Shown here one piece after another: positions 10,583-27,802 of a stretch of 32,852 nucleotides of DNA. The stretch covers positions 1 to 32,852 of the forward strand of contig JAKSMQ010000026.1 in the NCBI GenBank assembly GCA_024400565.1. Reading direction: 5' to 3'. Origin of the DNA: Bacteroidales bacterium (GTDB lineage Bacteria; Bacteroidota; Bacteroidia; Bacteroidales; P3). The notes under the pieces were generated by a model. It had not been told where the DNA came from, did no database searches, and saw only the letters and a list, made by a program, of their open reading frames with translations. A program made the translations under genes and the position numbers. The stretch's first letter is position 1. The number at the start of each line of letters is the position of its first letter.

Positions 10583-10726
10583 AGCATCCGCCTTGCGTCA
10601 GCCTTGCGTCGGTCTAGGGTCGGTATAGCGTCCACTTTTTAATCCGTTTGTGGACTTTATGTGGAGGCTATGTGGAGGCTAAGTGGACGCTAGAGGGAGG
10701 CTAGGGGGACGCAACTGGGACGCAAC
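10583..10726. repeat. 11-bp periodic inverted array, locus A
   Basis: The left arm (10583-10637) is five contiguous 11-mers sharing GTC at positions 4-6 of the unit, of the type TGCGTCGGTCT. A spacer of 12 bases follows. The right arm (10650-10726) is seven contiguous 11-mers of the type GTGGACGCTAG, drifting to TGGGACGCAAC. The arms are reverse-complementary at the unit level (GCGTCC against GGACGC). It lies between two divergently transcribed genes and does not overlap any coding region. Confidence 0.8.
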
Positions 10727-10941
10727 TGCCTGCCAGCCGGGAGAGAAGTTGTCCCTTCTGCAAAGCCGGAAGAGATGCCTCCTGGAGCAATCTCCGATTG
10801 GCGTTAATCGAACTCGGGTTGAGGAATAAAGAAGCTCTCATCCTCTGTCGCCGGTCGGTTGCCCCGAAATGGTAATTATCTGTAATTTGATAAAATACAA
10901 CGCCTATGACTGAATTATTTTCTCATTTCAGAAATCTTTCG

Positions 10942-10949
10942 TATTTTTG
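10942..10949 (+). promoter_or_regulatory. -7 element of ugd
   Basis: TATTTTTG followed by CAAATT lies 32 bp before the ugd ATG and fits the Bacteroidetes -7 consensus. A clear -33 element is not visible. Confidence 0.65.
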
Positions 10950-10981
10950 CAAATTATTATTATTGTAAATATTCTAAAAAG

Positions 10982-12271
10982 ATGAAGATATCTGTTGCCG
11001 GCACCGGTTATGTAGGTCTGAGTATTGCCACCCTGCTTGCACAACACAATGAGGTTGTTTCTGTTGATATTGTTGCCGAACGCGTAGACATGGTCAACCG
11101 CCGCCAGTCTCCCATAAGAGACGAATATATTGAACGGTTCTTCGTAGAGGATCTTGCCCTTCAGAAGGGCGAAATGCCCAAGGAGGCTATCCTGCAGAAG
11201 CCGCTCACCCTGACTGCCACCCTGGACTGGGAGAATGGATACAAGGATGCAGATTTTGTTGTCATCGCAGCCCCAACCAACTATGACAGCCAGAAGAACT
11301 TCTTCGACACATCGGCCGTTGAGGATGTTATCGAGAAGGTTATGAAGGTGAATCCCGATGCCATAATGGTAATCAAGTCAACCATCCCTGTGGGCTATAC
11401 GGAGAGTGTGCGGAAGAAATACCATACCGACAACATTATCTTTGCGCCCGAGTTCCTGCGCGAATCAAAAGCCCTCTACGACAATCTCTATCCCTCGCGC
11501 ATCATAGTAGGTTATCCCCAGGATAACGAGCGCCTGGACAGGAAGGCTCACGAGTTTGCCGAGCTCATTAAGGGAGGAGCGCTTCAGGAGGAAATCCCCA
11601 TGCTCTATATGGGTAGTACCGAGGCTGAGGCCGTGAAACTCTTTGCCAATACCTATCTCGCCCTACGTGTAAGCTATTTCAACGAACTGGACACCTATGC
11701 CGAGCTCAAGGGACTCGACACGATGAGTATCATTAACGGAATTGGACTTGACCCCCGTATCGGCCTTCACTACAACAATCCCTCTTTCGGATATGGCGGC
11801 TATTGCCTGCCCAAGGACACCAAGCAGCTGCTGGCCAACTATCAGGATGTGCCGCAGAACATGATGACTGCCATTGTGGAGAGCAATCGCACGCGCAAGG
11901 ATTTCATCGCCGACCAGGTTCTGAAGAAGGCCGGATGGTACAGCTATAGCGAAAACAACGATTTCGCCTCGGCCCTGAACGCAGAATCCTGTACCATAGG
12001 AGTATACCGTCTCACTATGAAGAGCAACTCTGACAATTTCCGCCAAAGCTCTATCCAGGGAGTAATGAAGCGCATCAAAGCAAAAGGAGCTCAGATTATT
12101 ATCTACGAGCCCACTCTCGAAGACGGAAGTTCCTTCTTTGGGAGCAAGGTGGTCAACGACCTGGATGAGTTCAAGCGCCAGAGCCAGGCCATCATCGCCA
12201 ACAGATACGATTCGTGTCTTGATGACGTACAGCAGAAGGTCTACACCCGCGACATCTTCAAGCGCGACTGA
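10982..12271 (+). CDS. ugd: UDP-glucose 6-dehydrogenase
   Basis: This 429-residue enzyme oxidises UDP-glucose to UDP-glucuronate with two NAD+, supplying precursors for capsule, LPS or exopolysaccharide. An N-terminal Rossmann motif is at residues 4-12 (SVAGTGYVG). KSTIPVGYT (132-140) and FAPEFLRES (154-162) are family hallmarks. The central helix carries [20 protein letters not shown]. The catalytic Cys275 sits in [13 protein letters not shown]. The C-terminal UDP-binding domain runs to the end. The length is close to the usual 390-450. The gene is preceded by its own promoter and followed after 103 bp by a fimbrial-like lipoprotein. No polysaccharide cluster surrounds it. Confidence 0.95.
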
Positions 12272-12374
12272 TTGCTACCATATTGGGGTCGCTACTCTAT
12301 TGAGGACTGACGCTCCCGTCTGACCTAGGAAACCTATAAAGAAAATAAATCTATAAATACATAACATTATTACT

Positions 12375-13682
12375 ATGAAAAAGATATTTCTTCTTTTTAT
12401 GGCAATCATTCCTTTCCTGTTCTCCTCCTGTACCAAGGAACAGGAAGAGGGCTCTGTAACAGTAAAGATTTTCGGAAGTGTCTGGAGCGATGTGTTTCAG
12501 GACGAGGACCTTAACTCGGCCAAGGCTGGGGCTCCGAAGAGCTCTGCGGCAAACGGCCCCATTCGCCTTTATTTTGTCCGTCAGGGAACAACTACCTTTG
12601 CAAAAAGCATTACAATCACAAGCGGCAACTCTGTAAACGTCAGTCTGCCGACCGGCAACTATACTGTTTACGCACTTTGCGGCCTCACGGACGATAGCGC
12701 GGCTCCAACCGACCTGAATTCTGTAATCAACCTTTCTTCTTCCAACCCTCTGCCCGACGTGCAGCTGGGCTCTAAGAGCATAACTGTTTCTACGAGTAGT
12801 ACCCCCGCTCTGGATATCGAGGCGGACCATCTGCTTACAAACCTTTCTCTCAACCTGATAGGTGTTCCTTCCACCATTACCTCTCTAAGGGTATACGTGC
12901 GCAATCTGTATGACGGATTTACGTTGAGCAAGGTCTTCAGCCAGTCTGCCAGCATGAGCATTCCTGTTAGCGTCGCTCAGGATAATACAACCTCTACAAC
13001 CTATTCTGGACAGCAGATTATCTTCCCCTGCGCATCAAACACCAGTATGGGTGTTCTTGTTGAGGCTCACGATGTAAATGGATATACCACACTTCTTCAA
13101 ACATCTACCACTCCTGCTTCATCAGGCGACCACCTCACCTTGAATCTGAACTATGCCGACCTGATTCCTTTATCGGGCGGAGTAACCGTAAGCGATTGGG
13201 GAACAGCTACTGGAACAGGCGATCTGACAGGTTTCAACTTCGTCGATGGCGAACAATATTTCAGCTACCCTGCTACTGTTATCCGTGCTTCAACATCTGC
13301 GCTATATATCGTGAGCCACCTCCCCATTACCCTCACTAAGGCAGAACTCGACGCAATGTCCAATCCTCAAGAGAGTATTGCCTATACTCTTATACCCGAT
13401 CTGATTGTAAATAGATGGTACATTCCAGCCAACAATGGACAGCCTGGTAACGTGATTTTAAAAATATCAGATATCAATTCTCAGATTGTTGCAAACGGAG
13501 GAACAGCAATTGACCTGAGCGCGACCAATATACTTGCATATTGCACTTATGGTGCCGACGGTCATCCTACAGCATATTATTGCTACGATTTCCAGAACAA
13601 TACAACCGTACAGGCTACCAATCTGAGCAGCTCAAGCCAGTTCATTCTTTATCCTATAGGCAAGATATTGCTCGCACAATAA
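12375..13682 (+). CDS. FimB/Mfa2-like fimbrial lipoprotein (putative)
   Basis: The 435-residue protein has a lipoprotein signal (MKKIFLLFMAIIPFLFSSC). The mature N-terminal domain is a beta sandwich typical of Bacteroidales fimbrillin and anchor proteins: strand RLYFVRQGTTTF, then VNVSLPTGNYTVYALCGL, where the family usually has LPAGxYxVxAW. A second sandwich begins near LTNLSLNLIGVPSTI and ends in the VTVSDWGTATG motif (about residue 274), common in these proteins. A further 150 residues are extra, containing SYPATVIRASTSALYIVSHLP. The composition is rich in Ser and Thr, consistent with a surface-exposed protein. A role as fimbrial tip or anchor subunit is inferred; no partner fimbrillin gene is present in the window. 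A stem-loop follows the stop. Confidence 0.6.
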   Translation: MKKIFLLFMAIIPFLFSSCTKEQEEGSVTVKIFGSVWSDVFQDEDLNSAKAGAPKSSAANGPIRLYFVRQGTTTFAKSITITSGNSVNVSLPTGNYTVYALCGLTDDSAAPTDLNSVINLSSSNPLPDVQLGSKSITVSTSSTPALDIEADHLLTNLSLNLIGVPSTITSLRVYVRNLYDGFTLSKVFSQSASMSIPVSVAQDNTTSTTYSGQQIIFPCASNTSMGVLVEAHDVNGYTTLLQTSTTPASSGDHLTLNLNYADLIPLSGGVTVSDWGTATGTGDLTGFNFVDGEQYFSYPATVIRASTSALYIVSHLPITLTKAELDAMSNPQESIAYTLIPDLIVNRWYIPANNGQPGNVILKISDINSQIVANGGTAIDLSATNILAYCTYGADGHPTAYYCYDFQNNTTVQATNLSSSSQFILYPIGKILLAQ

Positions 13683-13703
13683 TAACCTGTGCATAAGAAT
13701 GAA

Positions 13704-13723
13704 CCTGCCACAAGAGTGGCAGG
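13704..13723 (+). terminator. stem-loop after the fimbrial-like gene
   Basis: A perfect 8-bp stem (CCTGCCAC/GTGGCAGG) with a 4-base loop lies 22 bp past the stop. It has no T-run after it, so it may stabilise the mRNA end rather than terminate by itself. Confidence 0.5.
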
Positions 13724-13738
13724 CTGACAGACCAAAGA

Positions 13739-13787
13739 GAGTCGTAAGTATGGTACATCGCAATTGCAAGTACCATATTTACGACTC
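13739..13787. repeat. 18-bp inverted repeat
   Basis: The arms at 13739-13756 and 13770-13787 pair over 18 bases with a single G/T wobble (GAGTCGTAAGTATGGTAC and its near-complement), around a 13-base loop that contains the palindrome GCAATTGC. No T-run is present. The region between the fimbrial-like gene and the convergent sigma gene (13683-14189) otherwise holds only this, a second inverted repeat and AT-rich sequence. Confidence 0.7.
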
Positions 13788-13911
13788 TTAACCAACATAC
13801 TTACGTTTACAAACCAGCATACTTTTGCAATCTAATAAATTTGGTAGGAGAGTAGATGAGGAAAGGAGAGATTGCATATTGAAAAATTTTACATAAAAAG
13901 TATTCAACTCC

Positions 13912-13992
13912 TATCCACTTTATCCACTTGCTTTATACCAGTCTCTAAATGTGATTGATAGAATAAGTGGATACCCAAGTGGAAAGTGGATA
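13912..13992. repeat. inverted cluster of CCAC/GTGG boxes
   Basis: TATCCACTTTATCCACTTG (13912-13930) is mirrored by CAAGTGGAAAGTGGATA (13976-13992), which differs by a 2-base gap, and a third copy, AAGTGGATA, starts at 13965. The spacing of the boxes is irregular (9, 12, 7), unlike the 11-bp arrays elsewhere. A run of CCCC and TTTTT follows on the plus strand, so it could also act as a bidirectional terminator. Confidence 0.5.
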
Positions 13993-14182
13993 CCCCTTTT
14001 TCTGTCTCAGCTATGCTAATATTCTACTATTATCCTGATGTCCAATAAAATAATACGATAATACCCATCATAATTTCCTATTTTCATCATCGAGGGCAAT
14101 ATGATAGATCTTTGTGTCGCGAATAGGTATGATTGTCAGAAATGACCAGATACACGCTTTAGGTCAATAATTGTTTTAGGAC

Positions 14183-14220
14183 TCAAAAAAATTAGACACC
14201 TCTTTGTAGGGTGTCTAATT
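14183..14220 (-). terminator. intrinsic terminator of the ECF sigma gene
   Basis: A perfect 11-bp stem (14190-14200 with 14210-14220, AATTAGACACC/GGTGTCTAATT) has a 9-base loop. On the minus strand it is followed by a run of T (seven A on the plus strand at 14185-14191). Confidence 0.85.
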
Positions 14221-14252
14221 GTAGTATCGGGTATTGATTAATTGCGGACGGA

Positions 14253-14843
14253 CTATAGTTCTATGTGCATCTTGTTCTCTTCGGCGAGGCGACGGAGATT
14301 GATAATAGCATAGCGCATACGACCTAGAGCAGTATTGATGCTTACGTCGGTCTTCTGGGCGATATCCTTGAAGTCGTATTTGCCAAAGTGACGCAGGATT
14401 ACTACCCGACGCTGTTCGGGAGGAAGCATCTTGATGAGCTTGCGGACATTGGAGTCGGTCTGCTGGCGGATAATATCGCGTTCGGCATTATCGGTATGTT
14501 GCTTAAGTGTTTCAACTACGTCAAAATCGGGACGGTTTGCTACCATTGGCATCTTGGTAACACGACGATAATAGTCAACAATGAGATTGTGGGCAATACG
14601 CATCACCCAATGGATGAATTTATTTTCATCCTTGTAGTAACCTCCGTTGATTGTATATACTACCTTAAAGAAAGTATCCTGGAAGATATCATCGGCCAAG
14701 TCTTTATCCTTGACAACTGAGATGATATAGCCGTAGACTTTGTTCTTATAACGGTCAAGAAGGACATCAAAACAAGCAGTATCCCCATCCTTGTAGGATT
14801 GGATCAACTCATTATCAGTGAGCGAACTTTTTAATACGTCCAT
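14253..14843 (-). CDS. RNA polymerase ECF sigma factor
   Basis: The 196-residue protein is a standard ECF sigma factor. Region 2 spans about residues 24-95, with RYKNKVYGYIISVVKDKDLA followed by DDIFQDTFFKV (core-RNA-polymerase binding) and FIHWVMRIAHNLIVDYYRR (-10 recognition). Region 4 spans about 133-190: LPPEQRRVVILRHFGKYDFK and the helix-turn-helix DIAQKTDVSINTALGRM. No anti-sigma gene follows, because it is closed by a strong terminator, so it may be controlled at expression level or by an unlinked factor. A TATCTTTG promoter element lies 83 bp upstream of its start. Genes of this type, constitutive and single, are common in Bacteroidales. Confidence 0.93.
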   Translation of the reverse strand: MDVLKSSLTDNELIQSYKDGDTACFDVLLDRYKNKVYGYIISVVKDKDLADDIFQDTFFKVVYTINGGYYKDENKFIHWVMRIAHNLIVDYYRRVTKMPMVANRPDFDVVETLKQHTDNAERDIIRQQTDSNVRKLIKMLPPEQRRVVILRHFGKYDFKDIAQKTDVSINTALGRMRYAIINLRRLAEENKMHIEL

Positions 14844-14925
14844 TATAACCTCCTAATTTTATTGGTTAAAACTGATAGTAATGTTTCGATAGACCTTAGG
14901 GTTTAGTTAGACATTAAAACGGGTG

Positions 14926-14933
14926 CAAAGATA
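14926..14933 (-). promoter_or_regulatory. -7 element of the ECF sigma gene
   Basis: CAAAGATA (TATCTTTG on the minus strand), flanked by GTG and CGC, matches TAnnTTTG. It predicts a leader of about 75 bases. Confidence 0.65.
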
Positions 14934-15040
14934 CGCTTTTTTTCTTAATTACGCGCACTTCTACGCAACTTTTTTATTTTTAGTATGTGGAAATGCAATT
15001 TTATTGTGTTAAAATCAAAATATTGTGTTAAAAAGATAAT

Positions 15041-15973
15041 TTAACATTTTTCGTCTGAGCAAGCCGATTTGTAGAGTGAAACCACCTCCGACGCTTTCTC
15101 TTTTAACGTTTTTTGCCCATCTATCCAATGGATATTTATTCCATTACGTTCCATTCTGCGGAACCATGTCATCTGTCTTTTCGAGAACCTTCGGATGTCG
15201 GTATACAGGTTATCGTACATCGACTCATACGAACATTCGCCCATAATATAGCGTGTCAGATGCTTGTATTCTAATCCGTATCTAAGCAGTCGCTCGGGGG
15301 GGACACCCTTATCGAGAAGTCCCTTTACCTCTTCTACCATACCCTCTTCCAGTCGCTGGCGCAGGCGTATGCCTATACGCTCAATAACCAGCTCGCGCGG
15401 AAAGGAGACGCCGATGATAAGGTGGTTCATCTGGGGCATCCTCACATGCTTGTCGGGATGCTTCATAGCAAACTCCTGAATCTCGAGTGCACGTATCAGT
15501 CGGTCGCGTGTCTCGGTATCAGTATGATTGTGGAGCTTAATGTACGAAGCCAGTCTCTCGGTAAGTTCCTCATCGCTAAAAGGCTCAAGCGAGGCCCTGA
15601 ACTCGGGGTCTATTGGGGCATCGGGCAACTCATAACCACGTACCACGCTCTCCACATACAGGCCTGTTCCTCCGCAGAGGATTGGCTTTCTACAGTTGGA
15701 GAGAATCAGCTGGTAGGCTCGGATAAAATCATTTTGAAACTGATACACATTGTATTCGTAGCCTGCCTCGTGGATGTCTATCAGATGATAGGGAATCTGT
15801 CTGCCTTCTACCATATATTCCCCCAGATCCTTGCCCGTACCAATATCCATTCCGCGAAACACCTGACGAGAGTCTGCGCTTATTATCTCGCCGTCAATCT
15901 GACGTGCTACCTCGACTGCAAGTGAGGTCTTTCCGCAAGCTGTAGGTCCGGTAATGGTTAAGAGTGTGGGCAT
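15041..15973 (-). CDS. miaA: tRNA dimethylallyltransferase
   Basis: MiaA transfers a dimethylallyl group to the N6 of A37 in tRNAs that read codons beginning with U. The 310-residue protein has the P-loop GPTACGKTS (residues 9-17), SADSRQVFRGMDIGTGK (about 34-50), the switch CGGTGLYVESV, and the C-terminal RQMTWFRR motif, all diagnostic of the family. The length matches. The start MPTLLTITGP is used because the P-loop follows at the usual distance. A bulged hairpin with a short T-run separates it from porE upstream, so it may have a separate transcript. Confidence 0.96.
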   Translation of the reverse strand: MPTLLTITGPTACGKTSLAVEVARQIDGEIISADSRQVFRGMDIGTGKDLGEYMVEGRQIPYHLIDIHEAGYEYNVYQFQNDFIRAYQLILSNCRKPILCGGTGLYVESVVRGYELPDAPIDPEFRASLEPFSDEELTERLASYIKLHNHTDTETRDRLIRALEIQEFAMKHPDKHVRMPQMNHLIIGVSFPRELVIERIGIRLRQRLEEGMVEEVKGLLDKGVPPERLLRYGLEYKHLTRYIMGECSYESMYDNLYTDIRRFSKRQMTWFRRMERNGINIHWIDGQKTLKEKASEVVSLYKSACSDEKC

Positions 15974-15985
15974 AAGTCTATGAGG

Positions 15986-16035
15986 TAAGAAAGCAATGGA
16001 GCATTCTCGTGTGTGAATGAGTTTGCCCCATTGCT
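15986..16035 (-). terminator. probable terminator between porE and miaA
   Basis: AGCAATGG (15992-15999) pairs with CCATTGCT (16028-16035) around an inner stem CATTC/GAATG (16002-16006 with 16015-16019). On the minus strand it is followed by TTTCTTA. The hairpin is imperfect and the T-run short. Confidence 0.55.
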
Positions 16036-16065
16036 ATATATAAGGTATATATTCTCCTTTAAGGA

Positions 16066-18738
16066 TTATTCGTCAATAAAGGTGAGACGGCCACGCTGTT
16101 TATCGAATTCGTATGCGCCAAACTGGTTCAGACCGATGCGGTTGATGATGAACTTGTAGTCGATACCTTTTACAACTACAACCTCAACATTGCGGGCATG
16201 CTTCTGGCCAATCTGGAGTTCCTTGAATACGATGGTAGCCTTATCGAGGATGTTGCCATCGGGGTCGAAGGCATTGTCACGATCAGGGAAGTCTTCCTTG
16301 TTGATACGACGCTGATAGAGGAAGTTCATGGCCTCTTCCCAGCTGATGGCTACGGGCTCTGCATAACGCTCGTCGATGAGCATAGGCATCTGGCAGCCAT
16401 TTACGATACATTGGATTTCGCCCTTGGCAGAAGAAATCATAGTGGCAGGAATGGTACCCTCGTCGTGGATAATGGCAGGAGTGTAGTCTACGTGTTCGAT
16501 AGGAGTAGTTACAAGGTCGATAACCTTTCCGTCCTCGGTCTTCTTGACTGTAGGAGTCTGGTTGGCGGCAAGGTTGTCGATGAGGGTCTTGGAGACGTAG
16601 TCGGTACGGAGGATGAGGAATTCAAGACGGCGGTTGAGCAGGTGTGCAGCCTCCTGGCGCTCCTTGTTGGAAAGGCCATCGATATAGTCGCACTCAAGAG
16701 TCATACCCTCGCTGAAGGTGTAACGGTTGCCATTCACACGAACGGTCATATCGCGGTCGAGGGTGCGGGGCACACGTTCTGCGTAACCCTTGGCAACCAG
16801 ACGGTCTTTCTCAATACCACGGCTGATGAGATAGTCGACAACCGACTGGGCACGACGCTGAGAAAGGGTATCGTTGGTAAGGCCGATGAAGGGACGGCAG
16901 TCGGTATGAGCGCGAAGCTCAACTACGATATTGGGATTGTTGACCATTACGAGATAAAGGTCCATAAGCGAATCCATGAATTCTTCCTTGAGATCCCACT
17001 TAGCAAGGTCGTAGCGGATTTCGGGAAGAACGACGGGCTGCTTGGGAACAGGCTCAAGTCTGAAATCGTGAACGAGGTCCTTGTCGGTATTGTATCCGCA
17101 GGTGCTCTCGCTACCTTCAATAGAGAAATAGTCAACCTTGGATACATACATCTTATACACTACGTTGCGCTTGATCTGCTTGTCGTCAAACTTGTAGTAG
17201 CCCTGCTTGTTGGTATAGGTCTCAAATTGGGTGTTGTTGGAACCTACGATGCGGACCTTGGCGCCCTCGATAAGCTGCATGGACTTCTCGTCGCGGATAG
17301 TACCCTCGATGGAGTAGAGCAGAGGAGGAAGCTCGAAATAGAAGAGGTCGTCGTTTACGGGAGGAGTCTTGACGCCTTTCTTGTCGGTACGCTTGGAGTG
17401 AGGATCGTCGAAGGGACGGTTAGAGCTGAAGTAACCGCGCTCCATCATATAATGATCGCTTTCGGGATAGTATACGATACTCATCTCGTCGTAGGAGGAG
17501 TTGATAGGAATACCGAGGTTCTGGGGAGAAGACCAGCGACGGCCCATGCGATGGGTTTCGAAGAGGTCCTGACCACCGACGCCGGGAAGACCATTGGAGG
17601 AGAAATACATGGTTGAGTCGTTGCGGAGCAGAGGCATAATCTCGCGGCCTTCGGTATTGATAGAAGGACCGAGGTTTACAGGATTGCCGAACGATTCGTC
17701 CTTGCTGTGGCGGGTTACCATCCAGAGGTCATAGTCGCCGATACCATTAGGCATATCGGACGAGAAATACATGGTAAGCTCGTCGCGGGTAAGGGTAGGA
17801 TAGAGATAGTTGAAGGTGGTATCGCCCAGGTTGATACGGATAGGTTCGCTCCATTCGCCATTCAACTCGGCATTGTCGTCCTTCTTCTTTTTGCCCTTCT
17901 TGTTGTCGAGAGTGGGATTGCCACGGGTGGTATAGTAGATGTAGCAACCCTGGGTTTCGTGTTCGCGGCTGTCGCAACGGGAGAAATAGAGCGAACGGCC
18001 GTCGGGAGAGAACCAGGGCTCACCCTCGTTGACGCCAGTATTAATCTTACCGGTCTGGTCGAGAAGCTCTACTTCTGCGCTCCAGTCGCCCTTGCGGTCC
18101 TGGAATACGGTAAAGAGGTCAGAGAAGTTCTGGCCAGTCCAGGCATCATGCTGTTCCTTGCCTTCGCCGGTATAGCGCGAGGAGGTGAACACCAGTCTGG
18201 TAGTATCGTCGCCCACAAATCGGGGAGCCCAGTCGTTATAGTCCGAGCACCATTTGTCGAGCTTGATGATTTTATGACGGGTGCGGCTCATGAACAGCTG
18301 GTTCACATATACGAGCGAAGTCTTACGCTGGATAGCATAAGTGTCCTCGGGCTGCAGCTCAATGTATTTGTCGTAGTACTTGTCAGCCTCATCAAATTTG
18401 TTCTCGAAGCGGTACATCTCGGCCATGTAGAAATAAAGCTTAGGCTCGGTGGTGTAGTACTTCTGCGAGATGAGACGTTTGTAAACGCGCTCGGCCTTGG
18501 GGAAGTTGTTCATCAGACGGTAGCATTCGCCCATCTGGAAATAGCAACGATTCTTCTCCACCTTGTTGGAGGAAATCTTGTTGTATGCCTCTTCATATTT
18601 CTCAAGGGCGGCGATATACTGCTTCTGGTCGAAGAGATCATCGGCCTTTTGAGCTATACTTTTAGTTTGTGCAAAGCCCACCGAGGCGAAAAGGAGGGCT
18701 GCGAACAGGAAGAGAAGGCCTTTTTTAAGCATTTTCAT
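16066..18738 (-). CDS. porE: PorE-like T9SS component with pseudo-retropepsin C-terminus
   Basis: The 890-residue secreted protein (signal MKMLKKGLLFLFAALLFASVGFA) has the domain order of PorE, the peptidoglycan-binding outer-membrane-associated component of the type IX secretion system. TPR-like helices span about 28-150, with ALEKYEEAYNKI and KAERVYKRLI. A WD40/PD40 beta-propeller spans about 155-470 (repeated WFSPDGRSLYFSR, YFSSDMPNG, YFSSNGLPG). A carboxypeptidase-regulatory fold spans about 475-565 (YSIEGTIRDEKSMQLIEGAK). An OmpA-like peptidoglycan-binding domain spans about 568-712 (VELRAHTDCRP, SQRRAQSVVDYL, KGYAE), with an insert. After it comes an unusual domain at about 762-888 that resembles a retropepsin fold, with DER (789-791) where the catalytic motif would be DTG. 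The gene is single, followed by miaA. Whether it works with PorP/K/L/M/N cannot be judged here, since none lies in the window. Confidence 0.75.
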   Translation of the reverse strand: MKMLKKGLLFLFAALLFASVGFAQTKSIAQKADDLFDQKQYIAALEKYEEAYNKISSNKVEKNRCYFQMGECYRLMNNFPKAERVYKRLISQKYYTTEPKLYFYMAEMYRFENKFDEADKYYDKYIELQPEDTYAIQRKTSLVYVNQLFMSRTRHKIIKLDKWCSDYNDWAPRFVGDDTTRLVFTSSRYTGEGKEQHDAWTGQNFSDLFTVFQDRKGDWSAEVELLDQTGKINTGVNEGEPWFSPDGRSLYFSRCDSREHETQGCYIYYTTRGNPTLDNKKGKKKKDDNAELNGEWSEPIRINLGDTTFNYLYPTLTRDELTMYFSSDMPNGIGDYDLWMVTRHSKDESFGNPVNLGPSINTEGREIMPLLRNDSTMYFSSNGLPGVGGQDLFETHRMGRRWSSPQNLGIPINSSYDEMSIVYYPESDHYMMERGYFSSNRPFDDPHSKRTDKKGVKTPPVNDDLFYFELPPLLYSIEGTIRDEKSMQLIEGAKVRIVGSNNTQFETYTNKQGYYKFDDKQIKRNVVYKMYVSKVDYFSIEGSESTCGYNTDKDLVHDFRLEPVPKQPVVLPEIRYDLAKWDLKEEFMDSLMDLYLVMVNNPNIVVELRAHTDCRPFIGLTNDTLSQRRAQSVVDYLISRGIEKDRLVAKGYAERVPRTLDRDMTVRVNGNRYTFSEGMTLECDYIDGLSNKERQEAAHLLNRRLEFLILRTDYVSKTLIDNLAANQTPTVKKTEDGKVIDLVTTPIEHVDYTPAIIHDEGTIPATMISSAKGEIQCIVNGCQMPMLIDERYAEPVAISWEEAMNFLYQRRINKEDFPDRDNAFDPDGNILDKATIVFKELQIGQKHARNVEVVVVKGIDYKFIINRIGLNQFGAYEFDKQRGRLTFIDE

Positions 18739-20897: not shown

Positions 20898-21073
20898 AAA
20901 TGCATCTAAATATATTATCTTCCTTACGGCCCTTGCAGAAGAATCTTGTTTATCAAAGGTGAAGAGCCGAACCGAGGTCTTGGATACAACTCACGAAAGA
21001 AGCATCTATCGTCAAGTACAACAACCTCTTACACCCGTCCGAAATATCTTTGCTAATGTCTGTTACGACTTTG

Positions 21074-21081
21074 CAAAGATA
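21074..21081 (-). promoter_or_regulatory. -7 element of the repeat-protein/protease operon
   Basis: CAAAGATA on the plus strand is TATCTTTG on the minus strand, 177 bp before the repeat-protein ATG, giving a leader of about 170 bases. Confidence 0.6.
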
Positions 21082-21168
21082 CGAATTATTTTGGATAAAT
21101 CCTGATTTTTTTTTTCACTTAACGGCAAGAGTCCGCCCTCTGGCAAGGGCCGTCGGCAACTCCTATCC

Positions 21169-21300
21169 TCCACTTAGAAAGCACATAAAGAGCATCCAAG
21201 TAGCATCTGTCTGATGTCCCGTGCCGGCTGTATGCCGTTTATATGGACCCAAGGTGGAGACTAACCCGTTGTCGGATGGACTCATCCTGCCCCTCAAATG
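21169..21300. repeat. 11-bp periodic inverted array, locus C
   Basis: The left arm (21169-21212) is four contiguous 11-mers with CAC or CAT at unit positions 3-5 (types AGCACATAAAG, AGCATCCAAGT). The right arm (21213-21300) is eight contiguous 11-mers in the same register, and seven of these end in TG, mostly ATG or GTG (types CCGGCTGTATG, CCGTTTATATG). It lies between two minus-strand genes, near the 3' end of the secreted coiled-coil gene and upstream of the repeat-protein promoter. Confidence 0.65.
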
Positions 21301-21349
21301 GCAATATCCAGCCTTGTGAGATGTCGTAATCTACCAGTCTGACAGAATG

Positions 21350-22003: not shown

Positions 22004-22030
22004 CTTGATTCAATAGTTTGTTTGGAAATG

Positions 22031-22038
22031 CAAAGTTA
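22031..22038 (-). promoter_or_regulatory. -7 element of the secreted coiled-coil gene
   Basis: CAAAGTTA on the plus strand reads TAACTTTG on the minus strand, matching TAnnTTTG, 28 bp upstream of the ATG at 22003. Confidence 0.65.
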
Positions 22039-22251
22039 CAATTATTTTTCCTTTTATCCAAATTATTTTTCGCTCATATGTCTTCCTTCCCGTCCTGTCC
22101 CAATCCCCTATGTCTTCTCCAAAGAGCTAGGGTCGACAGCTATAAGAGAGCAATCTCTCCCGGCTGTAGTCGCCCAATAGGAGTCGGGGCCTGGGCATCT
22201 GTTATCCTATCGTCCGCAGACAATAGACGTGGCCTCCTTTAATGTCTAAGA

Positions 22252-22279
22252 GAGTGTACCCTCGGGTAAGGGCACACTC
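22252..22279 (-). terminator. weak hairpin after menA
   Basis: GAGTGTACCC (22252-22261) faces GGGCACACTC (22270-22279), a 10-base stem with one mismatch and an 8-base loop. On the minus strand it is followed by TTAGACATT. It lies 21 bp past the menA stop. Nothing else is recognised in 22039-22300. Confidence 0.45.
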
Positions 22280-22300
22280 AGGTCAAAGGTCTCGGTCGGA

Positions 22301-23338
22301 TTAGTTGATGAATGCTCCGATAGAGATGAGCAACACCAGGTAGGTGAGCATGTTGCGGGCAAGGAACCAGCGGATCATAAACCAGTCGATACCGGCGGCC
22401 ACTATGCCATCCCAGTTCGACATAGGTCCCATCCACCATTTAATCTTGGTCTGGGCAGGAGGCAATCCTTTGGTATTCTCTTCGCAATAGTCTATCATCA
22501 GCTTGAATAGGCTTACAGCCATGGGAAGGGTGACGAAACTGACCAGAACCCAGGGAGAAACCCAACCCAATACAACAGCCAGTACGACAAAAGCATAGGG
22601 GAAGAAGTTGAAGACAAAACTTCCGGCCAGCATCTTGGTAGGAGTGTGGAGGATGGTAGCCAGGGTCTTCTTCCCTACCGACTCGTCGGGGGCGGCATCC
22701 ATAATGGAGTGGGTATACAGAATGTTGATTACCAGCAGACCTACAGCCACGGAGATAAGACCCAGGCCCGGGTCGAAGATTCCTGCGGCAGCCTGACCCA
22801 TGCCCAGCATGAGCAGGGGTCCGAAGATAATACCGGTAACGAGTTCGCCCATGCCGCGATAGCAGAACATGAAAGGCTTGGCCGAATAGAAGAAGCCCAG
22901 GAATCCTCCACAGGCTGCGAGGATTATGACAGGCAATCCGCGGAAATAGAGTATTGCTCCTCCTGCCACGATGGCCACAAGTCCGAAGAGGGACGCTACA
23001 CGTCGGGTTTCAGCCAGAGTGGCCTTGCCTTCAGCCAGATAGAGGGCCTTGCCGATACGGGCACGCATACCCGCACGATTCAGCTTTTCTCTACTCTCTA
23101 TGCCGGCATTCTTATAGTCGAAATAGTCGTCGAACAGGTTGACGCTAAGGTGGGCACATACAATTCCGATAAGGGCTATTATTGCCAGAGGCAAGGAGAA
23201 ATAGCCCTGGCCGAATTGCCAGAAACCGCCCCACGAGCTTTGGCTTCCTATGATACACAAAGCCATAATGGCGGGCATAACGCTCTGGGGGAGAGCTACA
23301 GTTCTGGCATTATTAAGCCAGAATTTGAATTTATTCAT
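22301..23338 (-). CDS. menA: 1,4-dihydroxy-2-naphthoate polyprenyltransferase (UbiA family)
   Basis: MenA attaches a polyprenyl chain to 1,4-dihydroxy-2-naphthoate in menaquinone synthesis, at the inner membrane. The 345-residue protein has eight to nine predicted helices. It carries the two aspartate-rich motifs of the UbiA family: NLFDDYFDYKNAG (about 67-79, NDxxDxxxD type) for Mg-diphosphate binding, and DAAPDESVGKKTL (about 215-227) in the second site. The N-terminal RTVALPQSVMPAIMAL is typical of MenA. It is the most distal gene of the minus-strand set starting at 27123, but a gap of 88 bp from the Cys/His protein may hold a separate promoter. No other men genes lie nearby. Confidence 0.85.
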   Translation of the reverse strand: MNKFKFWLNNARTVALPQSVMPAIMALCIIGSQSSWGGFWQFGQGYFSLPLAIIALIGIVCAHLSVNLFDDYFDYKNAGIESREKLNRAGMRARIGKALYLAEGKATLAETRRVASLFGLVAIVAGGAILYFRGLPVIILAACGGFLGFFYSAKPFMFCYRGMGELVTGIIFGPLLMLGMGQAAAGIFDPGLGLISVAVGLLVINILYTHSIMDAAPDESVGKKTLATILHTPTKMLAGSFVFNFFPYAFVVLAVVLGWVSPWVLVSFVTLPMAVSLFKLMIDYCEENTKGLPPAQTKIKWWMGPMSNWDGIVAAGIDWFMIRWFLARNMLTYLVLLISIGAFIN

Positions 23339-23426
23339 CAGTCAGTTGATTAGTTTGATAATGTGAAACAAATACCACGGCAAGGCCTATTGGCCTGCCG
23401 ACAGGCAATATCCAGAGAGGAGAATC

Positions 23427-23828
23427 TTATTTATTAGACTTCTTGGCTTTCTTCTCTGTGGTCTGGGCAGCCTTGGTTGCGGGAGTACCTTGGCAGGATT
23501 TACCATCATGACCTTGGCAAGACTTTCCGTCGTGACCCTGGCAGGATTTACCATCGTGGCCCTGACAGGATTTGCCATTATGACCTTGGCAAGACTTGCC
23601 GTCATGGCCCTGGCAAGCCTGACCCTGGTGGCTGCAGCCCTGATGCTGGGCCTGCTGAGCCTGGGCAGCCTGATGGTGGGGACAGTTGGCGTGGTTGTGG
23701 CCACATCCCTGGTGGGTAGCAGCAGTCTTGGTCTCCTGCTGGCTGGTTTTGGCGGTCTTTACAGGCTGCTGAGCAGCACAAATGCCCATAGTAAGGCAGA
23801 AAGCTGCAAAAAGAATGTATTTCTTCAT
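23427..23828 (-). CDS. small secreted Cys/His-rich tandem-repeat protein
   Basis: The 133-residue protein has a signal peptide ending ICAAQ. A His/Cys-rich segment follows (HQGCGHNHANCPHHQ), then a Gln/Ala/His spacer and five consecutive copies of the 8-residue unit CQGHDGKS (one with Asn for Asp) ending in CQG. The tail is basic (KKAKKSNK). Each repeat offers Cys, His and Asp side chains, which suggests a periplasmic or surface metal-binding or metal-buffering protein, for example for zinc or copper. That is inference; no family is recognised. It lies 33 bp downstream of the LolE-like permease gene and 88 bp upstream of menA. The repeated DNA is prone to copy-number change. Confidence 0.75.
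   Translation of the reverse strand: MKKYILFAAFCLTMGICAAQQPVKTAKTSQQETKTAATHQGCGHNHANCPHHQAAQAQQAQHQGCSHQGQACQGHDGKSCQGHNGKSCQGHDGKSCQGHDGKSCQGHDGKSCQGTPATKAAQTTEKKAKKSNK
23487..23615 (-). repeat. 24-bp coding tandem repeat (CQGHDGKS)
   Basis: Five direct 24-bp units plus 9 bp encode the CQGHDGKS repeats. The units differ mainly at synonymous third positions, with one Asp-to-Asn change, indicating that the amino-acid repeat is maintained while the DNA drifts. Confidence 0.9.
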
Positions 23829-23860
23829 AGTGTAAATGTTTGTATTAGTTTATATTCAAT

Positions 23861-25147
23861 TCAATTTTTTTGGTCGGAGGGTTGCTTGTCGGGCTCTGTA
23901 TTGCCTATCCTGGCCTTCTTTATGGTAAAGGTGACAGCCAGAAAGGAGAGAACCAGTACAATAAGCAACGTATTGACGAAGTCCTGCCAGCGCATGGAGA
24001 CAGGGAATGCGTCGGTTATGAAATTAGCCCCCATCTTGATGATGCCAAACTGTTGCTGAACCCAGCAGATGATAAATCCTACCACCTGACCGGCCACGAT
24101 TCCCACCAGGGCTATCATGATGCCTTCGGTAAAGAATGTGCGACGCAGATCGGAGTTGTCCATACCCATGCTGCGCAAGGTGTGGATGTCCTTTCGCTTG
24201 TCGATGATGAGGAGCGAAAGACTGGCTATAAGATTCAAAGTGGCAATAAGTACTATGAGGCTGAGTACGAGCATCACGCCCAGTCGCTCGCTTTGGAACA
24301 CCTTGTAGTAAAGGGGCTGTTGCTCAAAGCGGTCGCGTACCTGGTAGTTGTCTCCCACAAGCGCCTTTATCTGCTCCTTGACTTTGTTGAGATGGCGCGG
24401 GTTCTTCAGGGAGATGGCAAGAGCCGTAACCTCGTCCTCGTCATAGTCCATCAGCTGGCGTACAAAGTCGGCATGAGCCACAACATAGCGGTTGTCGATA
24501 TCCTGCTGCAGATAGAAACAGCCGGCAGAATAGGCATGACCCGTATTGAAGGCCTCGCTCATCGTCATTCCTATGCCGCTTCCACGTTTGGGAATATTGA
24601 CCGTGAGCAGACTGTTGGCATAGGTAGAGATGCCCAGATTGTAGTAGATCTCGCCTCCGAATATGAGATAGTTGGCCTGCTGCTCGATGGTACAGGTCTC
24701 GTCGTTGGGGTCAACGGTCTCGAAGGTGTTGCGCAGACAATAGCTTCCCTCATAGAGCATTGTATCGAGACCCGTCATCTTGTGGTAGTTGTCGTCTACG
24801 CCACGCAGCTGGACAATAGCCTCGTTGTGCTTGTGGGTTATCCAGGCATTCTCCTCGACGAGGGCGCTCACCTGGTCGACGCCATCGAGAGAACATAGCT
24901 GTTCGTAGGCAATACTGTCGGTATGGAAGGTCTTGCCCTGAGCAGGCTCTATCTTGAGTTCGGGATCGAAGACATTGAAGAGCTCCTGCGTCAGTTCGCC
25001 GATACCGTTATAGACCGAGAGGACCACTATCAGGGCTGCCGTACCCACAGCAATACCCACCAGCGAAATCCAGGAGATGACGTTGATGACGCTTTTCTTC
25101 TTGCGGGAGAAGAGATAACGGCCTGCTATGAAGGTGGAGGGTCTCAA
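23861..25147 (-). CDS. LolC/LolE-type ABC transporter permease (FtsX/MacB family)
   Basis: The 428-residue inner-membrane protein has the four-helix permease architecture. A basic N-terminus (FIAGRYLFSRKKKSVINVISWIS) leads into helix 1 (about 28-50). A large periplasmic MacB-like domain spans about 55-280. Three C-terminal helices follow: SERLGVMLVLSLIVLIATLN, MIALVGIVAGQVVGFIICWV and TLLIVLVLSFLAVTF. The DKRKDIHTLRSMGMDNSDLR segment before the last helices is the coupling helix region of lipoprotein-releasing permeases. The family exports lipoproteins from the inner membrane with a LolD ATPase, but no LolD-like gene lies here. It is 9 bp downstream of rbfA, a neighbourhood I have seen associated in Bacteroidetes annotations. 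Confidence 0.82.
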   Translation of the reverse strand: MRPSTFIAGRYLFSRKKKSVINVISWISLVGIAVGTAALIVVLSVYNGIGELTQELFNVFDPELKIEPAQGKTFHTDSIAYEQLCSLDGVDQVSALVEENAWITHKHNEAIVQLRGVDDNYHKMTGLDTMLYEGSYCLRNTFETVDPNDETCTIEQQANYLIFGGEIYYNLGISTYANSLLTVNIPKRGSGIGMTMSEAFNTGHAYSAGCFYLQQDIDNRYVVAHADFVRQLMDYDEDEVTALAISLKNPRHLNKVKEQIKALVGDNYQVRDRFEQQPLYYKVFQSERLGVMLVLSLIVLIATLNLIASLSLLIIDKRKDIHTLRSMGMDNSDLRRTFFTEGIMIALVGIVAGQVVGFIICWVQQQFGIIKMGANFITDAFPVSMRWQDFVNTLLIVLVLSFLAVTFTIKKARIGNTEPDKQPSDQKN

Positions 25148-25156
25148 GGGAACGGG

Positions 25157-25501
25157 TTACTGTTTAAGCAATTCTTCGATATGGGCTTTATAGTCGAGGG
25201 TGTCGTCGATATAGAACTCAAGGGAGGGAATGATGCGCAGCTGCTTGCCTTCTCGGAGACCCAGTCTGCGACGCAGGTCGGAGGTATTGGCCCGTATGGC
25301 GGCCATCACCTGGTCTACCGTAACGCCCCCGATGGGGAAGATGCTTACGTAGATGCGGGCCAGGCTGAGGTCGGAGGTAATTCTCACGGTCGTAACGGTA
25401 ATAAGCGAATTGCCGAGCACGGGTTTCATTTCCTTGACGAAAATGTCGCTCAGGTCCTGCTGTATGAGTCGTGATATCTTCTGTTGACGAGTTGATTCCA
25501 T
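25157..25501 (-). CDS. rbfA: 30S ribosome-binding factor A
   Basis: RbfA is a small KH-like RNA-binding protein needed for late maturation of the 30S subunit and for growth in the cold. I start at ATG 25501 (MESTRQQKISRLIQQDLSDI); an upstream extension lies in the region between genes and would add 17 residues of low complexity. The 114-residue product shows the family pattern: an N-terminal helix RQQKISRLIQQDLS, strand LITVTTVRITSDLSLARIYV, a helix with LRRRLGLREGKQLRIIPSL and a C-terminal DDTLDYKAHIEELL. It is the third gene of the OMP-mtnA-rbfA-permease operon, with short spacers. Confidence 0.92.
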   Translation of the reverse strand: MESTRQQKISRLIQQDLSDIFVKEMKPVLGNSLITVTTVRITSDLSLARIYVSIFPIGGVTVDQVMAAIRANTSDLRRRLGLREGKQLRIIPSLEFYIDDTLDYKAHIEELLKQ

Positions 25502-25532
25502 ATTAGAGTGTTGAAGATGAAAATTTATGGGG

Positions 25533-26537
25533 CTACATCGTGATGATGCCATCCTCGCGGATGTAGCCGGTTATGAGTTCGTGAGGCGTAACGTCGAACG
25601 AGGGATTATAGATGTCGCATTCCTGGGGAGCCATAGGCTCGGCATACCAGGCCGAACGTATCTCTTCGGGGTTGCGTTGTTCTATCACAATGTCCTGGCC
25701 CGTAGCACAATGGGGGTCGAAGGTAGAACGGGGGCCGCACACATAGAAGGGAATGCCGTAATGGCGGGCCAGGATGGCCACCCCGAGGGTTCCTATCTTG
25801 TTGGCGGTATCGCCGTTGGCAGCCACGCGGTCGCATCCTACCAGAACCATCTGTACCTTGCCCTGGCTCATGACCGAAGCAGCCATATTGTCGCAGATGA
25901 GCGTTGTGGGGACTCCGTTGCGGGTGAGCTCGTAGGCCGTGAGGCGTGCTCCCTGAAGCAGGGGCCGTGTCTCGTCGGCATAGACATGGATATTCTTGCC
26001 CGACTGGCGGGCGGCATAGATGGGAGCCAGCGCCGTACCATACCTGCCTGTGGCCAGTAGGCCGGCATTACAATGGGTGAGGATGCCCATTCCGTCGGCG
26101 ATAAGTGTATTGCCGTTGCGCCCGATGGCCTCGCAGGTCGACTCTTCCTCCTGCTGGATGAGAAGGGATTCGGCTTTGAGGGCCGACAGGATGCTGCCGA
26201 CATCGGAGAGTTGCGCTACCCTGGCCAGCATGCGGTTGACGGCCCAGGCCAGGTTGACTGCCGTGGGGCGGGCATTGGCTATGATATGGGCACACGACTG
26301 CAGCTTGGATGCTGCATCCGAGGCATCTTTCTCTACCAGAGTCCGGAACGCCACATAGAGCCCCATTGCTCCGCAGATGCCGATAAGGGGAGCCCCCCGC
26401 ACCTTGAGCCTGCGGATGGCGTCGGCCACCTCGTCGGCTGTGGAGAGGGTGACATACTCTTCGCGGTTGGGCAGCTGCGTCTGGTCGAGCACACGCAGCT
26501 GCTCCCGCTCGTCGAACTGGACTAGGTTGAGATTCAT
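25533..26537 (-). CDS. mtnA: S-methyl-5-thioribose-1-phosphate isomerase
   Basis: MtnA isomerises methylthioribose-1-phosphate to methylthioribulose-1-phosphate in methionine salvage. I place the start at ATG 26537 (MNLNLVQFDE), 10 bp past the stop of the OMP gene; the longer reading would extend into that gene in another frame. Of 334 residues, RRLKVRGAPLIG (42-53) is the substrate-binding signature. The catalytic Cys156 lies in ILTHCNAG and the catalytic Asp236 in LVGCDRVAANGDTANKIGT. The length is slightly below the usual 340-370. Close relatives include eIF2B-like proteins and other sugar-phosphate isomerases, but both catalytic residues argue for MtnA activity. No mtnBCDK genes are in view. 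Confidence 0.9.
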   Translation of the reverse strand: MNLNLVQFDEREQLRVLDQTQLPNREEYVTLSTADEVADAIRRLKVRGAPLIGICGAMGLYVAFRTLVEKDASDAASKLQSCAHIIANARPTAVNLAWAVNRMLARVAQLSDVGSILSALKAESLLIQQEEESTCEAIGRNGNTLIADGMGILTHCNAGLLATGRYGTALAPIYAARQSGKNIHVYADETRPLLQGARLTAYELTRNGVPTTLICDNMAASVMSQGKVQMVLVGCDRVAANGDTANKIGTLGVAILARHYGIPFYVCGPRSTFDPHCATGQDIVIEQRNPEEIRSAWYAEPMAPQECDIYNPSFDVTPHELITGYIREDGIITM

Positions 26538-26547
26538 ATCTTCGTAA

Positions 26548-27123
26548 TTAGAAACGCCAGCCCATGCGGACGGGGAGGAATGTGGTCTGCTGGGTATAGG
26601 CAAAAGCCACCTCGAGGAAGATGCTGCGGTTGTTGCGTTCCATATTGCTGAGAACGTGGTTGTAGTACCAGTTGATACCCAGACCCACTTCGGCATAGGG
26701 AGCAATGGTGTTGCCATAGGGTGTATCACCCATCATGTAACTTGCTCCGAGCTTGCCGATAATCATGGGAGCAAACTCAACATCGAGAGGACGGAAGTCG
26801 AAGTCGATGAAGGCCATGGCGCTATGCCAGCCGTTCTTGAAATGGGCAGGAGCAGCCACATAGTTGTAGCCCAGACCCAGACCGACAAAGAAATCCTGCT
26901 TGATGCAGACGCCGTTGATTACGTTGATGCCTGTGGTATGGCGCAGGTCGTTGATGTAATAGCCATATTCGCCGGGATGGCCCAGGTTAGAAACATAGGG
27001 GGCATAGCCTGCTTCTACCTTGAACATGTACTCGTAATCGGACAAGGCTTGTGAAAATTGAGCCTGTGCGGCACCCGCAACAAATAGCGCAATAGCCAGT
27101 ACTAATGACTTTATCTTATTCAT
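26548..27123 (-). CDS. outer-membrane beta-barrel protein, unknown function
   Basis: I start at ATG 27123 (MNKIKSLVLAIALFVAGAAQAQ, a type I signal). The mature part (about 170 residues) has alternating amphipathic strands with aromatic belts: YMFKVEAGYAPYVSN, FFVGLGLGYNYVAAP, MAFIDFDFRPLD, IGKLGASYMMG, TIAPYAEVGLGINWYYN, and the C-terminal strand ending MGWRF with the terminal Phe of outer-membrane barrels. The size fits an eight-stranded barrel. It heads the operon with mtnA, rbfA and the permease, with a promoter just upstream. Functional linkage to these is not obvious. Confidence 0.8.
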   Translation of the reverse strand: MNKIKSLVLAIALFVAGAAQAQFSQALSDYEYMFKVEAGYAPYVSNLGHPGEYGYYINDLRHTTGINVINGVCIKQDFFVGLGLGYNYVAAPAHFKNGWHSAMAFIDFDFRPLDVEFAPMIIGKLGASYMMGDTPYGNTIAPYAEVGLGINWYYNHVLSNMERNNRSIFLEVAFAYTQQTTFLPVRMGWRF

Positions 27124-27177
27124 AATATTCCATTTAGCGGCTTCTCCCATTAGGGGGAGGCCGATAGTTTAGCGATG

Positions 27178-27211
27178 CAAAGATAAGAAAAAAATGTCAA
27201 TTTGCGACAAA
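27178..27211 (-). promoter_or_regulatory. promoter of the OMP-mtnA-rbfA operon
   Basis: On the minus strand a TTTG (27208-27211) and a TATCTTTG (27178-27185) are separated by 22 bp, matching the Bacteroidetes -33/-7 arrangement. The start codon is 55 bp downstream. Confidence 0.75.
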
Positions 27212-27337
27212 AACTGCACATTTTTATTATGTATCCGACATATTTAGTCCCCGAACCGACTCGGAGACCAGACCCCAGGAGAGAAGGCGGCAAGGAGATG
27301 GGGAGAACGCCTCTCCGACCAGTCAATAAGGGAAAGT

Positions 27338-27525
27338 GGCCGCAACAATAAGGCATCTCGGCCCAACGATGGCCCCAAGGACTATGAGGAATGGGTTAGA
27401 GGAATGGGCAACGGATGGGCGGGGATCCGAAACAGGGTAGGGCGGCCGGAGGGCAATGGTAGCCCAATCCCAGATTAACCCAGGCCGAACCCAGGCCGAA
27501 TGTAGGCCGAACCCTGGCCAAAACG
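27338..27525. repeat. 11-bp periodic array, locus D
   Basis: Four contiguous 11-mers of the type AGGCCGAACCC lie at 27482-27525 in strict register. In the same 11-base frame, going left to 27338, further weaker units appear (GGCC at 27338, 27360 and 27371; ATGGGC at 27404 and 27415; GTAGGGC and GTAGCCC at 27437 and 27459), a pattern that suggests a decayed longer array. An opposite arm is not clear. Confidence 0.5.
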
Positions 27526-27623
27526 TAAAATTTCTTCTGCTTCGGATTTTCCGATTATCTGTCCCGTCCCAGTTGGCGGCAAACGATGTGTGCACATTGT
27601 CGCATCCGAATGAGACCATACAT

Positions 27624-27802
27624 AGCATACAGACACCACCTTGAGAGCATCATGCTACGCTATTGCCGGCACACAGACAGCACTAAGGGATAGCACTTTA
27701 TGAGGCATAGTGCTGCCTGTGTGCTGTCTAGGTGCTGCCTGTATGCTGTTTATATGCTGTCTGTATGCTCCCATAGTGCTGTCTGTATGATGCCTGGCAG
27801 GG
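27624..27802. repeat. 11-bp periodic inverted array, locus B
   Basis: The left arm (27624-27700) has seven contiguous 11-mers, five with CAC or CAT at unit positions 3-5 (types AGCATACAGAC, AGCACTAAGGG). After three bases, the right arm (27704-27802) has nine 11-mers, eight of them with ATG or GTG at unit positions 7-9; seven of these eight end in CT (types GTCTGTATGCT, GCCTGTGTGCT). AGCATACAGAC is exactly the reverse complement of GTCTGTATGCT. It lies in the 930-bp spacer upstream of the rsbW-like gene. The rest of that spacer (27212-27337 and 27526-27623) shows nothing recognised. Confidence 0.85.

Follow-up and report, generated by a model that had tools for sequence, protein, structure and literature searches.

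The window analysed here is a 32,852-nucleotide stretch of DNA from a Bacteroidales bacterium (NCBI GenBank assembly GCA_024400565.1, contig JAKSMQ010000026.1), and its intergenic spacers carry arrays of degenerate tandem units with a period of 11 bp. Some of the arrays stand beside a sugar-nucleotide dehydrogenase gene and an anti-sigma-type HATPase gene (Table 1), and an initial annotation made from the letters alone had listed four spacers of this kind. When lag-11 self-identity in each interval was compared with 2000 dinucleotide shuffles, three of them proved to lie far beyond chance: 0.684 against 0.26 at 10583-10726 (z 11.3), 0.494 against 0.25 at 27624-27802 (z 6.8) and 0.429 against 0.273 at 27338-27525 (z 4.7), with 0/2000 shuffles as high in each case, and 1/1000 for the last when any lag from 5 to 30 was allowed. 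The fourth, 21169-21300, is weak alone (0.380 against 0.245, z 3.4, 2/2000; 15/1000 for any lag 5-30), while its units, by eye AGCAY on the left and RTGGA on the right, match the genome-wide family described below.

Table 1. The 11-bp arrays of the window and the features beside them.
Feature	Position	Strand	Description
Array 1, left arm	10581..10635		degenerate 11-bp CTAGCGTCCAC-type units; rightmost CAC 10633-10635
Array 1, centre	10636..10649		14 nt, read from sequence
Array 1, right arm	10650..10728		11-bp GTGGACGCTAT-type units
UDP-glucose/GDP-mannose dehydrogenase gene	10982..12271	+	right of array 1; Pfam PF03721, PF00984, PF03720
Array 2, decayed	21169..21300		AGCAY units left, RTG units right; below 15-bit listing threshold
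Array 3, core	27437..27526		direct GGCCGAAC 11-bp units (GGCCGAA type); lag-11 tract of 32 bits
Array 4, left arm	27624..27696		AGCAY units
Array 4, centre	27697..27709		13 nt, one base under the usual 14
Array 4, right arm	27710..27796		RTGCTGYCTRT units; lag-11 tract of 37 bits; Tandem Repeats Finder periods 11 and 22
TAnnTTTG motif	27928..27935	+	between array 4 and the HATPase/STAS/SpoIIE genes; read from sequence
Anti-sigma-type HATPase_c_2 gene	27933..28517	+	right of arrays 3 and 4; Pfam PF13581

Tracts, by which we mean segments of a log-odds lag scan reaching at least 20 bits unless stated otherwise, occur across the whole window (lags 5-40) at lag 11 (3), 22 (4) and 33 (2), with single tracts at 6, 12, 18 and 24 and none at the remaining lags; that of array 1 amounts to 77 bits across 10581-10728. 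Opposite arms had been claimed for three spacers and are clear at 10583 and 27624 and visible in decayed form at 21169; the GGCCGAA array is direct, as are its relatives at L020 15924 and L026 12188. The centres between the arms, given earlier as 0 to 12 bases, are actually 14 nt (10583) and 13 nt (27624); an automatic scorer gave array 1 a lower score with its centre set at 29 nt, and placed that of array 4 at 26 nt, one over 25. In array 3 Tandem Repeats Finder reports period 11 at 27477-27519, and the signal is far weaker in 27338-27436, which had been counted as part of the same array. A search of the window against Rfam at the gathering score returned a tRNA at 7299-7372 as its sole match, and the arrays of the window match no structured RNA family.

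The window's own genome (G000; 1.89 Mb, 71.6% complete) was sampled as 20 stretches not chosen by array hits (383 kb), 20 hit-chosen stretches (396 kb) and the window itself, 812 kb in all. The unselected stretches contain 17 tracts at lag 11, 17 at lag 22 and 7 at lag 33, and, multiples of 3 and 11 aside, 0-3 at each of the other lags between 5 and 40, whereas one shuffle of them left no tract at lags 10, 11, 13 and 22; the check proposed with the initial annotation, an excess of lag-11 signal over shuffled sequence, thus came out positive. Hit-chosen stretches have 46, 39 and 33 tracts at lags 11, 22 and 33. After merging, 58 arrays are counted in the 812 kb, of which 23 lie in divergent, 18 in tandem and 8 in convergent spacers and 9 at stretch edges, and none overlaps a gene as called by a small home-made hexamer model, which misses some genes and, in other species, calls a few arrays coding that look intergenic. 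Tandem Repeats Finder independently lists, between genes, 67 arrays with period 11 and 28 with period 22, and no more than 7 with any other period; a further 3 period-11 arrays fall in coding sequence. A Blast search with one array gave 91 matches in this genome at E <=10, many of them overlapping.

The arms of these arrays are locked in phase. Gaps from a CAY to an RTG peak at 14, 25, 36 and 47 nt (28, 51, 78 and 99 pairs), with lesser peaks two bases lower that come from a second RTG. By score 33 of the 58 arrays are two-armed, and their centres measure 14 nt (17 arrays), 25 (9), 12 (3), 23 (2), 15 (1) and 26 (1), where the 12- and 23-nt values are what the second RTG, two bases away, would give. 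Polarity is nearly uniform, since 33/58 read CAY-centre-RTG and 3/58 the reverse, one of these scoring both ways. The alignment of centres and units comprises 26 arrays of this genome and was anchored on RTG and not on TA (T9 and A10). Read outward from the centre the unit is RTG-SWSNY-TAK, with T9 and A10 present at 80% each; agreement is 0.48-0.63 for units 1-4 and 0.44-0.45 for unit 5, and the centres are close to background in sequence (pairwise identity 0.278 against 0.255 when shuffled). In another species (G009), L141 9687-9853 and 18271-18378 appear by eye to be inverted copies about 8.5 kb apart, each with two distinct arms.

Unit sequences are often shared within a genome and rarely between genomes. 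As measured by best 44-nt identity among 89 arrays, pairs from different loci reach at least 0.70 in 33% of 1214 cases in the window's genome, 67% of 55 in G010, 42% of 36 in G012, 3/3 in G009 and 1/1 in G019, and in 0/6 each in G001 and G003, whereas between genomes 1.7% of 2584 pairs do so. The closest relative at thrS, G003 (95%), has the G000 unit type, with a best pair of 0.86. One array of the window's genome used as a query matches only 2/41 genomes, itself included, and a pattern scan of named genomes with two adjacent GGACGC units (near genomes perhaps excluded) gave 3 single matches in unrelated bacteria. The earlier view that the period stays constant while the sequence changes, with CAY/RTG conserved, is borne out, and the family is larger than first reported. 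Slippage at each locus by itself, one of the meanings first considered, is insufficient because unrelated loci of one genome have units in common; a neutral repeat able to spread may be at work. The units abut without spacers, so that the unique spacers of CRISPR are absent, and the arrays also differ, as had been said, from REP elements linked to RAYT in having no Y1 transposase link. Similarity between copies mostly stops at the array ends. Exceptions are a few copies within longer dispersed repeats of the same genome (L018 1-391, L020 15222-15804, L026 12491-13050 and L016 5-447), two of which stand at contig starts.

Arrays of 11-bp units also occur in other species of the genus, mostly with different units. 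In a same-genus sample of 20 stretches (285 kb; 19 taken blind, L096 chosen by a hit), lag 11 yields 17 tracts, lag 7 yields 15, and lags 8 and 14 yield 8; every further lag outside the multiples of 3 and 11 has 0-5. By genome, in sets that overlap this sample and in which a few tracts are AT runs, lag-11 tracts number 12 in G010, 10 in G012 and 9 in G001 (100 kb each), 11 in G003 (118 kb), and 1 in G002 and 5 in G009 (60 kb each). No lag-11 tract was found in other families of the order (258 kb, 15 genomes), and ten other genera of the family have 3 (387 kb, 19 genomes), of which that of L177 is part of a 21-bp array and that of L186 is AT-rich. The third, at L184 13734-13893 (genus g26), consists of some eight A-rich 11-bp units in a row, next to 21-bp repeats, and may be a true 11-bp array, possibly the sole one seen outside the genus.

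The sister genera g19 and g20 carry lag-21 intergenic arrays instead (8 and 10 tracts of at least 18 bits, against 0-5 at all other lags); elsewhere lag-21 tracts at this threshold number 11 in seven further genera together, none in g27 and 4 in the order sample. The 21-bp arrays at L172-L178 include units such as TAAAACAAAGAAATAATTTTC, some of them common to several loci of one genome. Within the genus there are many 7-bp arrays, some with inverted arms, and some 9-bp arrays. The 7-bp kind was noted at L080, L138 and L139 (G002) and at L086, L126 and L127 (G012), with inverted arms at L080 9755, L127 5072 and L126 7889; three such units equal two helical turns. The heptameric repeats of Nostoc and Xanthomonas are likewise abundant short tandem units of bacteria, and differ in being G-rich 7-nt units for which the available part of the source mentions no inverted phase-locked arms (PMC4692102).

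The place of the arrays was judged from TAnnTTTG, the motif that typically forms the -7 element of promoters in Bacteroidota. Counted on the same strand as the adjacent gene, it has 32 copies in the 10.95 kb that separate arrays from genes, none in the 5.19 kb of the arrays themselves and a single copy in the 9.40 kb on their far side; the background is 1.12 per kb per strand, and 29/47 gene-array pairs have the motif. Since the motif falls between array and gene and not within the array, the promoter most likely separates the two, which would leave the arrays outside the transcript of the neighbouring gene. The copy beside array 4, which we take to be such a -7 element, is overlapped by the listed HATPase_c_2 start, and the true start is therefore probably further in. 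Among spacers of at least 200 bp, taken from the stretches not chosen by hits and the window, arrays occupy 21/57 divergent, 22/129 tandem and 6/40 convergent ones (divergent against the rest, 28/169, Fisher p 0.0026); with the window excluded the counts are 19/55, 22/123 and 6/38 (divergent against 28/161, p 0.013).

The same spacers were then compared among relatives. Upstream of hisS, for which 30 loci were cut, the partial G105 dropped and G018 contributes only 32 nt, a lag-11 tract is present in 9/29 genomes, and of the lags 5-30 none but 11 and 22 reaches 20 bits in more than two genomes; upstream of thrS the count is 9/21, one of which (G003) is AT-rich slop. Units differ among most species at both genes and are alike among near relatives such as G007, G009 and G022. 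Across genome sets, however, arrays occupy 8-45% of large spacers, and the two genes had been picked for their array in the window's genome, so the comparison attests to turnover of sequence and not to conservation of place. The search suggested with the initial annotation, for conservation of the period at orthologous spacers, shows no locus-specific conservation at these two genes, where lag-11 tracts are no commoner than that baseline, and both were dropped as conserved array sites. The hisS and thrS spacers of G000 and G003 no longer align and yield no empty-site comparison. At the UDP-glucose dehydrogenase locus (30 loci) the window's array is the sole one of the kind described, other tracts of at least 20 bits (L147, L168) being AT- or A-rich; around Prs (30 loci, strand not sorted) arrays lie near the gene in few genomes; and no close orthologue of the HATPase gene was found among the other 78 genomes of the genus (best 45% identity).

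Kept spacing together with changing letters points to a DNA-binding system or to an unusual class of selfish repeat. Head-to-tail binding from a symmetric core is, tentatively, the simplest account of the phase lock, the polarity and a gap of fixed length but free sequence. The arrays would be dispersed operator-like platforms for a candidate oligomeric DNA-binding protein, whose protomers would bind head to tail, one per 11-bp unit and on nearly the same face of the helix. A symmetric core would bridge the gap, whose length in this species is 14 nt or one unit more, irrespective of its bases, and the inverted arms would result from protomers lining up outward from the core on either side. Such platforms would stand outside promoters, often between divergent ones, and if recognition shifted fast between species and the units followed, by whatever manner of replacement, period and phase would persist where sequence did not. 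Any effect of the putative protein on transcription or on chromosome folding would be a further supposition. The initial annotation had likewise thought of phased protein-binding sites, and this survives in spirit (phase-locked arms, conserved gap length, place outside promoters) although a protein was looked for and not found.

Several results weigh against the putative head-to-tail protein. Units of several types are found side by side in the same genome, and at times in the same array, a mixture not readily explained by one protein that reads sequence; the period, too, is different in other genomes (7 and 9, or 21 in sister genera). In the two close pairs, the gaps within arrays or next to them measure 4, 11, 11, 18 and 22 nt between G023 and G008 at thrS, and 1, 5, 7, 11, 12 and 23 nt between G007 and G022 at hisS; an earlier claim of phase-keeping indels of whole units was withdrawn on this recount. 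Of the 47 gene-array pairs, 18 are without TAnnTTTG, the divergent excess is not significant once spacers longer than 700 bp are removed (13/40 against 21/110, p 0.12), and hisS and thrS, with occupancy no higher than the general rate for large spacers, give no locus-specific conservation. Counts of Y1/RAYT, RHH_1, HU and MerR_1 in 41 genomes track the arrays nowhere: RHH_1 (PF01402) is found in 0/25 genomes of the genus at E 0.001, other RHH families not having been searched, HU and MerR_1 counts are ordinary, and the sole MerR_1 protein in the incomplete G000 looks by eye like an effector-domain regulator and not like CarH, no B12-domain search having been made. The mixture of unit types, indels of varied length and the lack of a candidate protein are the reasons why we hold the head-to-tail account only tentatively. 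Its broader form, in which the whole genus has an architectural DNA system set by geometry rather than sequence and read by a putative fast-evolving, filament-forming protein, with the two-turn 21-bp arrays of sister genera as a possible variant, we regard as rather improbable.

Our literature search found no description of such 11-bp arrays; there are precedents for parts of the proposed binding. The centromere parC is present as one site per plasmid, and that of R1 reportedly has ten repeats around a promoter. Its repeats are direct and its protein, ParR, is of the ribbon-helix-helix type, of which the RHH_1 family was not found in the genus genomes searched. In the consulted portion of one source, ParR of plasmid R1 needs at least 2 of the 11-bp parC repeats for binding (PMC9426499). 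The operators of CarH and CarA (MerR family) consist, in the sections of the report used here, of degenerate 11-bp units bound head to tail on one DNA face near promoters; they are single operators of three to four direct repeats that overlap promoters, and those sections describe no inverted arms around a fixed gap (PMC9304148). The arrays share with them the tandem 11-bp direct repeats and lack the TnnACA of each unit, their consensus being RTGSWSNYTAK; they also number dozens per genome, and no CarH-like protein was seen in G000. The ospC operator of Borrelia (Gac) has, according to partial text of its source, up to seven adjacent, protein-bound 11-bp repeats upstream of the promoter and one further repeat in the opposite direction (PMC10127594); unlike the arrays it is a single operator.

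The strongest competitor of the head-to-tail account, which we rate as somewhat unlikely, is a selfish or neutral minisatellite, in which a genus-specific process, for example duplication related to primer or gap length together with ectopic conversion, would make 11-bp units and spread them among spacers. Genes and promoters would then be free of arrays only through selection against frameshifts and lost promoters, with which the 0/58 arrays in called genes agree. Adjacent units have the same positions 4-6 in 76/156 cases, where unlinked units would do so in 26%, which suggests local duplication; the fast turnover of sequence, the other short periods in the genus and the gap lengths other than 11 in close pairs fit as well. 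A minisatellite does not, however, predict a centre of fixed length (14 or 25 nt) and unconserved sequence, a single polarity or arms that face inward.

Hairpins or cruciforms, in DNA or RNA, with the arms as stem arms, are an unlikely general cause. Some arrays do fold: array 1 of the window has z -3.5 and -6.0 on its two strands, and L086 (G012) forms an almost flawless stem some 40 bp long (z -14.6). Unit variants follow one another in mirrored order on the two sides of the centre at p <0.05 in 5/9 arrays of G012 and also at L289 (G019), L290 (G023) and L295 (G100), in a test whose null is biased this way, as the range searched for the centre was narrower in the permuted controls than in the real arrays and z-values lean high, and which is relied on for extreme cases only; the mirroring is strong in some species and weak in G000. 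Arm likeness in G000 gives results that disagree: with whole-unit offsets the arms are slightly more alike within arrays than between them (0.619 against 0.572, p 0.0016, 45 arrays), whereas at fixed register they hardly are (units 1-5, within/between: 0.56/0.52, 0.58/0.58, 0.63/0.63, 0.58/0.56, 0.42/0.45). Unlike unit types face each other in 7/26 arrays (such as L013 10708, upstream of hisS, and L019 7349), and most tested arrays fold poorly (21169, z -0.3; the unlike-arm arrays L013, -1.1, and L019, -1.9; L098 of G010, no better than shuffles at +1.6). For both reasons structured RNA, another meaning first suggested, is weak as a general account, and the position of the arrays beyond the promoter motif also speaks against hairpins. 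A general hairpin explanation fails in the window's species; some other species may use or generate hairpins.

A non-autonomous mobile element of MITE (miniature inverted-repeat transposable element) or REP type, moved in trans, seems less likely again. REP elements and BIMEs (bacterial interspersed mosaic elements) are, like the arrays, dispersed, intergenic, palindromic and present in many copies, and they are not known to have tandem 11-bp units. They go with RAYT, and the Y1 transposase (PF01797) was found neither in G000, at 71.6% completeness, nor in the array-bearing G008, G009 and G019. The dozens of intergenic copies, with similarity mostly confined to the array, would suit a mobile element, as would their restriction to species, a feature of BrickBuilt in Porphyromonas (PMC4596501, cited here for its partial text). 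That text describes BrickBuilt and the PgRS MITEs of Porphyromonas gingivalis as intergenic, species-limited tandem repeats of Bacteroidota, but with direct units of 23 or 41 nt and, in BrickBuilt, a leader, a tail and IS5-type terminal repeats (PMC4596501). The arrays have no constant leader and tail; their unit numbers are ragged, no shared ends were seen and the centres are unrelated in sequence, and where close pairs were compared (thrS in G023/G008, hisS in G007/G022) each of the two genomes has an array in that spacer.

Intrinsic bending by phased flexible steps, with no protein reading the sequence, is highly improbable. The period does come near one helical turn here and, at 21 bp, near two in the sister genera, but compared with arrays whose unit positions are permuted identically the real ones are no richer in helically phased roll or YR steps (over four groups, mean percentiles of 0.41-0.64 for roll and 0.22-0.52 for YR steps), and the idea that flexible CA/TG steps on one face of the helix are a selected property finds no backing.

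Bacterial dispersed repeats are normally recognised by their sequence, and here it is the spacing that is kept, so that ordinary repeat searches miss the arrays. If a protein reads them, its recognition and a large number of sites would be changing in step inside a single genus, a counterpart in bacteria of the fast evolution of centromeres or PRDM9; if none does, the arrays would be intergenic DNA of helical period that evolves in concert across the whole genome.

Two further features of the window may be recorded. The HATPase_c_2, STAS and SpoIIE genes in a row at 27933-30412 make up a partner-switching (RsbW/RsbV/RsbU-like) module in a genome of Bacteroidota type. At 23487-23632 tandem repeats of 24/48/72 bp, in frame by length, lie within a 133-aa minus-strand open reading frame (23427-23828), and probably encode a repeat protein separate from the 11-bp arrays.

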